A stretch of 34,791 bases of DNA from Bacteroidaceae bacterium (GTDB lineage Bacteria; Bacteroidota; Bacteroidia; Bacteroidales; Bacteroidaceae): NCBI GenBank assembly GCA_017453465.1, contig JAFTEV010000009.1:1-34791 (forward strand). Direction: 5' to 3'. Below, piece by piece: positions 5,012 to 5,973 of the stretch (within the stretch, counting starts at the first letter, position 1; every line of letters begins with the position of its first letter). A model generated the notes under the pieces. It was not told the DNA's origin. It saw nothing but the letters and a program-made list of their open reading frames with translations, and made no database searches. The position numbers and the translations under genes were made by a program.

Positions 5012-5115
5012 TATATAAATTTTGGATTTTTTACGCATGGTGAAAATAAAAACTTTTTACAGAGGAAAATTACAAAAAATTCAGTCCAAATCTTGCACAA
5101 ACAGAAAAAAACTTA

Positions 5116-5124
5116 TACTTTTGC
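5116..5124 (+). promoter_or_regulatory. Promoter of the structured RNA
   Basis: TACTTTTGC matches TAnnTTTGC exactly. A TTGC at 5092-5095, 20 nt upstream, can serve as the -33 element. Transcription should begin near 5131, 440 nt before the first credible start codon, which argues that the primary product is an RNA. Confidence 0.65.
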
Positions 5125-5130
5125 AGCGGA

Positions 5131-5488
5131 TTCCATTGTGCCAGCAATGCAATAAGTGCAAAAACTGGACAGACTGGATTCCACATAATATAGAAAGCGT
5201 TTACTTACGCTTTGTTCTTGGCGTTTCAAAGTCTCGCAAACTTGAATTGTTATACAGGACAAGGCAACAGTAGATGACTATGGGGATATGTCAACATATC
5301 AAGCCCTCATTGTACTCGCTTGTATAGGTAATAAAATGTGCTTATATGATTCAGTAGTACAAAGAGAGGGCTAATATTTGCATATTCAGCGTAGGCTTCT
5401 GCGTGTTGCTCGTTCTTATGACAATGGGCAATGCGAGACGCCTTGAAACGCAGGACGGGTAACAAGTACAGACTCCTGCGCTTTTTTA
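5131..5488 (+). ncRNA. Putative free-standing structured RNA, about 355 nt
   Basis: The interval begins just after a strong promoter box, ends in an intrinsic terminator and has no convincing ORF. A long-range helix closes most of it: gcgtttcaa (5221-5229) pairs with ttgaaacgc (5443-5451), and tctcgc (5232-5237) pairs with gcgaga (5433-5438). Inside are further stems. These are gatatg/catatc (5285-5300), gccctc with gagggc and ttgtac with gtacaa (5303-5315 with 5357-5371), and ttgctcgtt/aatgggcaa (around 5407-5432, including G-U pairs). A small hairpin aaagcg/cgcttt (5194-5213) lies 5' of the main helix. I do not see the conserved cores of RNase P RNA or tmRNA (no tag ORF). The promoter-to-terminator design resembles Bacteroidales-restricted RNAs such as the Bacteroidales-1 motif. 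Membership cannot be confirmed by eye. Confidence 0.6.
5449..5488 (+). terminator. Intrinsic terminator of the structured RNA
   Basis: The arms cgcagga (5449-5455) and tcctgcg (5474-5480) are perfect complements and are followed directly by ctttttta. The 5' arm overlaps the last bases of the long-range helix by three nucleotides, so folding of the RNA and termination may be coupled. Confidence 0.75.
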
Positions 5489-5572
5489 TATCATGTATAA
5501 AACACTTTTGTTCCACCACCATTTCCAGTGCCTTGGCGTGGGGAGACCGACAAGACACACAAATCTATCAAT

Positions 5573-5973
5573 ATGAAAATACCTCTATGCTTTCGTGCTG
5601 CTGCGCTGGCCCTGTTTCTGGCTACCGCTGCACAGGCACAAACCATGTACAATGTCCAATACTGGATGGAAAAGGCAACTACACCGAAGCCGCCAAATGT
5701 CTTCGTCCTCTGGCCGACGGCGGCAATGCCGAGGCGCAGACTCTGGCTGCCCAACTTTTCTTTGAGGGCAAGGGCGTAACGAAGAACGAGGCGCAGGGCG
5801 TAAAGTATGCAACACAGGCGGCAAAACAAGGCCATGAAGACTCGGACACCGTCACAGAGGTTTTCACTTTGGAATGTCAGCCTGGCGATATGGACGAAGA
5901 TGGCCGCATCAGCGTGGGAGACATCACACGTCTAATTGAACAATATCTACACCAGACAGGCGAGTCCAAATAA
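5573..5973 (+). pseudogene. Secreted Sel1-repeat/dockerin-like protein, frameshifted
   Basis: The ATG at 5573 opens a clean signal peptide (MKIPLCFRAAALALFLATAAQAQ) and continues TMYNVQYW. In that frame the protein then loses sense and stops at 5777-5779. The neighbouring frame (-1) continues from about 5660 with a Sel1 (TPR-like) repeat: GKGNYTEAAKCLRPLADGG, then EAQTLAAQLFFEGKGVTKNEAQGVKYATQAAKQGH. It ends with a calcium-loop, dockerin-like tail (GDMDEDGRISVGDI) and stops at 5971-5973. The switch lies near ATGGAAAAGG (5666-5675). The simplest reading is a one-base indel, either a pseudogene or a sequence error. A programmed -1 shift on the A-run is possible but the heptamer is not canonical. 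The intact product would be about 132 residues, secreted. Confidence 0.6.

Follow-up and report, generated by a model that had tools for sequence, protein, structure and literature searches.

Regulation in the gut Bacteroidales has mostly been described in terms of sigma factors, invertible promoters and the UpxY/UpxZ proteins. A large leader RNA that promotes read-through, EAR (or epsC RNA, RF01735), precedes surface-polysaccharide genes. In a table of PMC2864571, EAR is listed for Bacillales, and the candidate structured RNAs of Bacteroidales include Bacteroidales-1, Bacteroides-1 and Bacteroides-2. In Bacteroides fragilis, UpxY prevents premature termination in its own 5' leader, as stated in a review and a later paper (PMC7819879, PMC7315117). 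In the LoaP-controlled dfn leader of Bacillus velezensis a separate small RNA hairpin, located before the terminator, is required for antitermination (PMC12691694).

The locus compared here with these systems comes from a Bacteroidaceae bacterium (contig JAFTEV010000009.1), and the whole stretch that was analysed, 34,791 nucleotides long, is called the window. A sequence-only reading had described a structured element at 5116-5488. The element is real, and the interpretation given with it is partly supported. The promoter box, the terminator, a second hairpin and the linkage to a downstream gene were all established by computation, as were both folds and the fact that they overlap. In our preferred reading, to which we assign a probability of about 0.72, the element would be a cis-acting, bistable attenuator leader that controls the access of the polymerase to accessory and surface genes. 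Under this model it represents a novel class of structured leaders, similar to an attenuator or a riboswitch expression platform, and it could act as a riboswitch, as a protein-controlled attenuator or as a polymerase-modifying element.

The putative promoter, on the plus strand like all features described below for the window RNA, comprises TTG at 5093-5095 and the box TACTTTTG at 5116-5123, and transcription would start near 5131. The box agrees with the consensus of the Bacteroidetes -7 box (TAnnTTTG). As a single instance it is weak evidence, because the window contains 19 such octamers where 14.9 are expected. The assignment is based on the sequence and on the boxes across the copies of the RNA: TAnnTTTG is found 20-220 nt upstream of the first core hairpin in 90 of the 105 copies, a count that averages 11 and never exceeds 20 in 200 mononucleotide shuffles, and the promoter that had been proposed at 5116-5123 is thereby upheld. 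TTG lies 17-26 nt upstream of the box in 60 of the 90 box-bearing copies, a count that stands without a shuffle control. A generic scan for sigma-70 promoters and terminators, with a consensus that is not that of the Bacteroidetes and with terminator loops of at most 8 nt, did not report the window sites.

The fetched loci yielded 142 distinct copies. Removal of 12 that lack the 5' core by pattern and of one that lacks the anchor left 129, of which 107 are non-redundant; the 94 of ordinary length were aligned. In the window, the RNA from 5131 to 5488 has a minimum-energy fold of -128.8 kcal/mol (z = -8.4), and none of 100 shuffles is as stable. The fold begins with a leader hairpin, P1 (5132-5178), the sequence of which varies among copies (leader hairpins were folded in 25 of them), and with P2 (5194-5200/5207-5213), which carries the conserved GCGTTTAC motif and has 96.4% of the cells of the 94-copy alignment paired. 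What follows is a long rod between the two halves of the RNA. Its 5' strands (5214-5260) are 5214-5218, P3 5221-5229, P4 5231-5238 and P5 5246-5254 plus 5256-5260, and its 3' strands (5412-5456) are P5 5412-5425, P4 5432-5439, P3 5443-5451 and the base at 5452-5456. A conserved stretch at 5263-5282 pairs in the rod with the 5' arms of the terminator (5263-5268/5405-5410 and 5278-5282/5390-5394; helix 8, 90.6% of cells paired). The variable apical hairpin P6 (5302-5372; 5302-5308/5366-5372 and 5306-5316/5356-5366) has a within-copy pairing z of -14.4. The long-range helix that had been suggested at 5221-5237/5433-5451 is exact at 5221-5229/5443-5451 and 5231-5238/5432-5439, and covaries strongly over the 107 copies. 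Homologs with covariation do exist, so that one of the findings named in advance as fatal to the sequence-only reading, a lack of covariation, is not borne out. An early reading of P4 as a kissing loop was discarded, because P3, P4 and P5 are nested.

The pairing of the rod is largely specific to each copy. When the rod strands of the 107 non-redundant copies were paired all against all, the mean energy was -37.3 kcal/mol for own strands and -20.9 kcal/mol for foreign strands. In 5000 permutations, which leave the relatedness of the copies in place as do the shuffles used for the rod and for the alternative fold, the values centred on -21.0 (SD 0.35), none went beyond -22.3 kcal/mol and 0 of 5000 reached the own-strand value. 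Compared with the 106 others, the own 3' strand is the best partner of the 5' strand in 86% of the copies. On the 94-copy alignment 90.2% of the rod cells are paired, both sides have changed in 34 of 52 pairs, and the covariation score is 0.376, against 0.193 when shuffled and at most 0.090 when slid. P5 is the weakest long helix (69.9% of cells), and a conserved core sequence is present in addition to the helices. The rod model derives from single-copy folds and duplex tests. RNAalifold, applied to 26 copies and to 94 copies (two settings), did not return the rod; its output contained the 3' domain of an alternative fold and, for 94 copies with the second setting, the 5' domain as well.

This alternative, terminator-containing fold consists of two separate domains. 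The 5' domain (5196-5279, approximately 5196-5224/5246-5279), predicted from folding snapshots and covariation, pairs GGCGTTTACT with GGTAGATGCC and TTTGTTCTTGAC with GTCAAAGACAAAG, and P2 doubles as its 5' strand. The 3' domain is formed by P8 (GCGTGGG/CCCACGC) and P7 (GTTGCTCGTTC/GGACGAGTAAC), with long-range 5' arms within 5389-5415 (P8 5389-5395, P7 5405-5415) and 3' arms at 5453-5463 (P7) and 5475-5481 (P8), directly followed by a T-run at 5482-5487. The terminator region (5449-5487) also contains a local hairpin, 5449-5455/5474-5480; the G+C-rich 3' arm at 5474-5481 that precedes the T-run therefore has two alternative partners, 5449-5455 locally or 5389-5395 at long range. A T-run of at least four is present in 104 of the 107 copies. 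Over the 94 copies 94.0% of the cells of the alternative fold are paired, both sides have changed in 23 of 45 pairs, and 0 of 500 shuffles score as high on any of five measures. The paired fraction is 98.4% for P7, 99.1% for P8 and 95.4, 91.3 and 81.7% for the helices of the 5' domain, the inner one being the weakest. The local terminator hairpin, which uses the same 3' arm, has 94.3% of its cells paired, with two of the five measures inside the shuffle range. The within-copy preference of P7, P8 and the local hairpin is modest (z of -7.1, -7.7 and -8.1).

The two folds draw on the same strands. In the minimum-energy folds the 5' half holds the 5' arm of P8 in 83 of 94 copies and that of P7 in 89 of 94, so that the rod and the alternative fold are largely mutually exclusive; a pseudoknot of the rod with P7, keeping part of both, is possible in our model. 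In the minimum-energy fold of the window the 5' half also holds the 5' arm of the local terminator. The suspicion that folding and termination are linked has therefore gained support, since both the local and the long-range terminator lose their 5' arms to the rod. As in attenuator leaders, we find two exclusive conserved folds of which one ends in an intrinsic terminator, with the relatedness of the copies incompletely controlled.

Folding the 5' half and P6 without the rest yields at least 70% of the pairs of the 5' domain in 86 of 94 copies; for the complete element, the minimum-energy structure contains at least 70% of the rod in 82 of 94 copies and the P7-P8 hairpin in one. Because the rod wins energetically in most copies and forcing P7 and P8 costs a mean 11.6 kcal/mol, the 'off' state must depend on kinetics or on a factor. 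Snapshots of the growing window RNA give the 5' domain at 5330 and at 5370, displacement of the outer helix at 5410 and the full rod at 5450, ahead of the synthesis of the terminator arm. Judging from this order, the RNA would relax into read-through, and termination would require that the 5' domain is held. The rod may not block termination fully, because the local terminator can coexist with most of it, at a mean cost of 4.4 kcal/mol and of at most 2 kcal/mol in 34 of 94 copies.

In the mechanism that we propose, a single Bacteroidetes-type promoter would start the leader, and the 5' half would fold first, on its own. It could then unzip and pair anew with the emerging 3' half; the resulting rod, some 230 nt in size, would keep the terminator's upstream arms occupied and so lead to read-through. 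Alternatively, the 5' half would remain folded, and the 3' half alone would make the P8-P7 hairpin right before the T-run, upon which transcription would stop. Translation of the read-through mRNA may be tuned by a second, small hairpin, which has a loop of the GGGGA type and lies some 18 nt ahead of the start codon. The two folds would thus compete in the cell, with a common factor or ligand acting on the 5' domain or on the conserved core of the rod; which of the states gets triggered is likewise something we infer. A shared cellular signal is likely, because the same device heads many accessory genes per genome (up to 17 matches). The downstream genes are too diverse to point to a particular signal.

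A gene starts 60-90 nt past the terminator in 79 of 135 copies, as compared to 67 of 463 random positions in the same loci under the same rule. The 135 are those of the 142 copies that have enough sequence and a downstream ORF; starts 45-135 nt away are preferred by the rule that picks the ORF, which was therefore also run at random positions as a control. The automatic start codons are sometimes wrong (e.g. L011, L019, L023). Within the 90 nt after the terminator TAnnTTTG is found in 3 of 107 copies. As in attenuator leaders, then, the promoter lies upstream of the RNA and seldom between the RNA and the gene. By its position we take the RNA class to be the 5' leader of the downstream gene on the same strand. 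The neighbouring prmA, beside which the element had been placed, is merely the divergent upstream neighbour in the window, whereas the partner throughout the class is the downstream same-strand gene.

Between the terminator and the start codon many copies carry a small hairpin of which the stem varies from copy to copy while the complementarity is kept, with a loop close to TTGGGGAGTC. It was detected in 62 of 100 leaders, against 9.6 +- 2.7 after shuffling, and a stricter rule still detects it in 48 of 101, with 13 of 297 gene starts passing in the control set. In the window it was read by eye at 5528-5558 in the read-through RNA (5528-5535/5551-5558, 7 of 8 pairs, loop GCGTGGGGAGACCGA), 14 nt before the ATG at 5573; the automatic criterion skipped it because of one mismatch in the stem. 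Selection on structure past the terminator would imply that the read-through RNA matters. In two upxY leaders (L232 and L237), from two genomes with at least eight UpxY genes, TGTGAT-AGGGGAGAGTCTTGAG-ATCACA stands just before the start codon, resembling the second hairpin of the window class, and the big RNA is absent. The small hairpin may be an element in its own right.

The genes behind the RNA are varied. Of 134 first-gene proteins of at least 50 aa, 126 were scanned and 8 were excluded as short or very long. The largest groups are BspA-type LRR proteins (10), UpxY (9), BACON lipoproteins (5), LytTR regulators (4) and DUF4988 proteins (3), next to single cases such as AbiH, ZorA2, a C10 peptidase and MBOAT. 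A secretion-like start, scored by a home-made rule, is present in 59 of 96 non-redundant first proteins versus 110 of 320 control ORFs. In the window, the downstream gene (5573-5973) starts at 5573 with a secretion-signal-like stretch, followed by a Sel1 repeat (E = 3.2e-8). Its frame is broken: 5573-5779 is read in one frame, which has the secretion-signal-like start, and then a frame ending at 5973 carries the Sel1 repeat and an acidic tail that we take to be EF-hand- or dockerin-like. The split gene would be either a pseudogene or an assembly error. The controlled unit in the window is this one short gene, after which comes a convergent gene. A short first gene recurs in seven loci (L008, L009, L010, L012, L083, L100 and L227) and encodes a small protein with HIGQLIKEELERQERTVSWFARKLYCDRSNVY or a similar motif, presumably helix-turn-helix-like.

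The RNA is widespread at the family level and beyond. At the DNA level, the window copy has five matches in its own genome including itself, the other four being 72-86% alike over 36-98 query bases, and 21 of 45 genomes of the genus have matches, often several each and mostly 70-80% alike. More copies were found with R1, a covariance model of the 3' half of the RNA (26 copies, 101 positions), which matches the window at 5381-5487 with 84.2 bits. At E 0.01, R1 has 11 matches in the own genome and 17 in another, and matches 38 of 45 genomes of the genus. At E 0.001 it matches 265 of 398 sampled genomes of the family (19 of 22 genera), with at most 10 candidates per genome scored, and at E 0.0001 69 of 392 genomes of the order (39 of 205 genera); searches over more than 40 genomes used stricter filters. 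In a phylum-wide sample at E 0.0001, 0 of 295 genomes matched besides the window's own, and this sample therefore doubles as a specificity control for R1. A scan of named genomes gave at least 118 stretches, and among the 80 listed the labels are Bacteroides, Prevotella, Paraprevotella, Parabacteroides, Muribaculaceae, Paludibacteraceae and Salinivirgaceae. Two listed copies (L099 and L113) lie on contigs labelled Firmicutes and Clostridiales, which are probably misbinned Bacteroidales contigs, although this is unproven. The supposed limitation to Bacteroidales thus holds for nearly all copies in the samples searched, and is blurred by these two labels; to speak of Bacteroidales only rests on the phylum sample and on taking the two as binning errors. 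In a collection of viral contigs a pattern search returned one stretch.

Some copies depart from the common form. Four in the own genome (L223, L224, L225 and L226, on contigs C34, C50, C6 and C37) belong to a subtype that is shorter and has diverged further; each of them is followed by a first long ORF of more than 700 codons that starts with MKRKLLLA or MKKKFTLF, which has a secretion-signal-like look. Two further copies (L017 in G002 and L031 in G001), near contig ends, keep the 5' half, and the family sequence ends past GCGTGGGCTCT, where a similar foreign sequence follows in both. The break is possibly due to an insertion element within the RNA.

No Rfam family covers the element. In the window no Rfam 15 model reached its gathering score, the best sub-threshold hit being to a microRNA family (23.2 bits versus 49), so RNase P, tmRNA, SRP, 6S and the other Rfam families were set aside. 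ARAGORN reported no tRNA or tmRNA gene on the window, and the sequence-only reading was right to see neither RNase P nor tmRNA. Among 20 loci with other copies the single Rfam match was an abiF RNA outside the RNA (RF03085, 58.5 bits, L013 1076-1112, minus strand), which precedes by a few hundred bases a copy with a first gene that seems to encode a SIR2-type protein; L067, run alone, gave nothing near threshold. The Bacteroidales-1 motif that had been offered as an identity found no Rfam 15 match at gathering score in the window or at the RNA in these 20 loci, and the other suggestion of the sequence-only reading, that the RNA is new, fits the lack of any matching family; the class is probably new. 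A coding reading was rejected as well. Total lengths are evenly spread modulo 3 (32/31/31 for the 94 copies), in line with the earlier remark that some 355 nt lack a credible ORF, yet a frame is open throughout in 13 of the 94.

Several other explanations share part of this evidence with the attenuator. The element has its own promoter and an intrinsic terminator whose T-run is nearly always kept, which is what a free-standing small RNA acting in trans would have, with the downstream gene incidental; moreover, terminated leaders would arise anyway and could act in trans. The independence from a neighbouring gene that such an RNA should have is not seen, however: gene starts cluster past the terminator, a promoter box in between is rare, and a self-complementary hairpin is maintained in the read-through RNA. 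For these same reasons the label 'free-standing' has to be dropped, and we consider a trans-acting small RNA quite unlikely. The many copies per genome could suggest a dispersed repeat, or a miniature mobile element bounded by hairpins. This is extremely improbable, as the DNA-level matches in the own genome are just 72-86% alike with the helices kept by compensation, promoter, terminator and gene spacing are kept across copies, and blastn with the window copy found no match in 72,556 plasmid or 50,697 phage records. A metabolite riboswitch with one small ligand would be a special case of the attenuator reading, and the multi-helix RNA, the conserved core and the expression platform with competing terminator and antiterminator are what one would look for; the functional coherence expected of its target genes was not found among the 126 first genes, which come from many families and have no metabolic theme, and its absence makes this option doubtful.

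The remaining two explanations invoke the polymerase itself. If the element were a processive antiterminator of the put or EAR kind, the folded RNA would bind the polymerase and make it resistant to its own and to later terminators. This model would suit an RNA class that occurs ahead of many unrelated genes, among them those for UpxY, the regulator that heads capsule loci, and that has a core sequence conserved in addition to the helices. It is nevertheless unlikely in view of the controlled unit in the window, one short gene before a convergent one, of the two competing folds, which point to a switch at the RNA's own terminator, and of the EAR model RF01735, which gave no match at gathering score. 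Alternatively, the leader might terminate unless UpxY, a NusG-type antiterminator of capsule loci, rides on the polymerase. This is attractive given what UpxY does in its own B. fragilis leader and given its frequency as first gene; in addition, R1 matches a few hundred nt upstream of six UpxY genes among the rows listed (G188, G206, G237 and three in G261). The search for UpxY gave hits in 361 of the 398 genomes of the family (E 1e-18, at most 8 candidates scored per genome). Against it, R1 without filters matched 0 of 20 whole UpxY-leader regions, which were taken from the upper rows, belong for the most part to a single genus and do not include the rows of G188, G206, G237 and G261; the UpxY start was located by motif in 9 of the 20, one of them probably wrongly, and all 20 were searched whole. 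Two further UpxY regions reached at most 8.4 bits. Moreover, G250, G276 and G284 (about 5.0-5.3 Mb) have at least eight UpxY genes each and no R1 match, whereas R1 is present and UpxY absent at E 1e-18 in G110 (8), G161 (6), G085 and G141 (5 each) and G168 (4), where weaker UpxY genes could exist. The RNA is thus found neither in UpxY leaders generally nor only together with UpxY, and most first genes are others. UpxY as a general partner is therefore unlikely, and a leader that serves as its recognition element is very unlikely; UpxY is among the targets, with 9 of the 126 first genes, and is separable from the RNA.

With somewhat less than even odds, we suggest that an order-wide class of switching leaders puts genes for capsule regulators, adhesin-like proteins, lipoproteins, regulators and defence under one signal through the control of termination, either as a new class of riboswitch or via a shared RNA-binding or polymerase-associated factor. 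If true, this would be a global regulon in gut Bacteroidales that is wired by RNA and not by a DNA-binding protein. An RNA class that occurs in two thirds of the sampled family genomes, and of which both switch states are visible in covariation, would add a layer of leader-RNA control for surface and defence genes. The structure model and the search model are supplied and could become an Rfam family. They make it possible to ask in laboratory strains which signal flips the switch and which genes share it.

The open-licence literature, as far as its text was covered, did not yield a description of the class; a large list of candidates, such as that of PMC8040213, may contain it without a name. 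Bacteroidales-1 (RF01693) and Bacteroides-1 (RF01694), the two that were compared, give no match at gathering score in the window or at the RNA in the 20 loci; for Bacteroides-2 the table in PMC2864571 has no Rfam number. EAR differs in that RF01735 has no match at gathering score to the window or to the 20 loci. The dfn leader (PMC12691694) has in common a leader with an intrinsic terminator and a separate small RNA hairpin; it comes from another phylum, and in our class the small hairpin lies after the terminator and the main RNA is far larger. The upx leaders of the B. fragilis capsule loci share the premature termination in a long leader and the order, and some copies of our RNA head upxY. 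The control logic is similar, because there UpxY counters premature termination. In contrast, all 20 picked UpxY leaders are without the window RNA and most copies head other genes, and the RNA is a different and broader device than the UpxY leader system. With terminator/antiterminator leaders in general, i.e. attenuators and riboswitch expression platforms, the class shares a promoter, a structured 5' leader, two exclusive folds and an intrinsic terminator shortly before the gene. It differs from them in that it matches no known aptamer, heads many unrelated accessory genes and builds its antiterminator, a rod of about 230 nt, by exchanging strands between its two halves.
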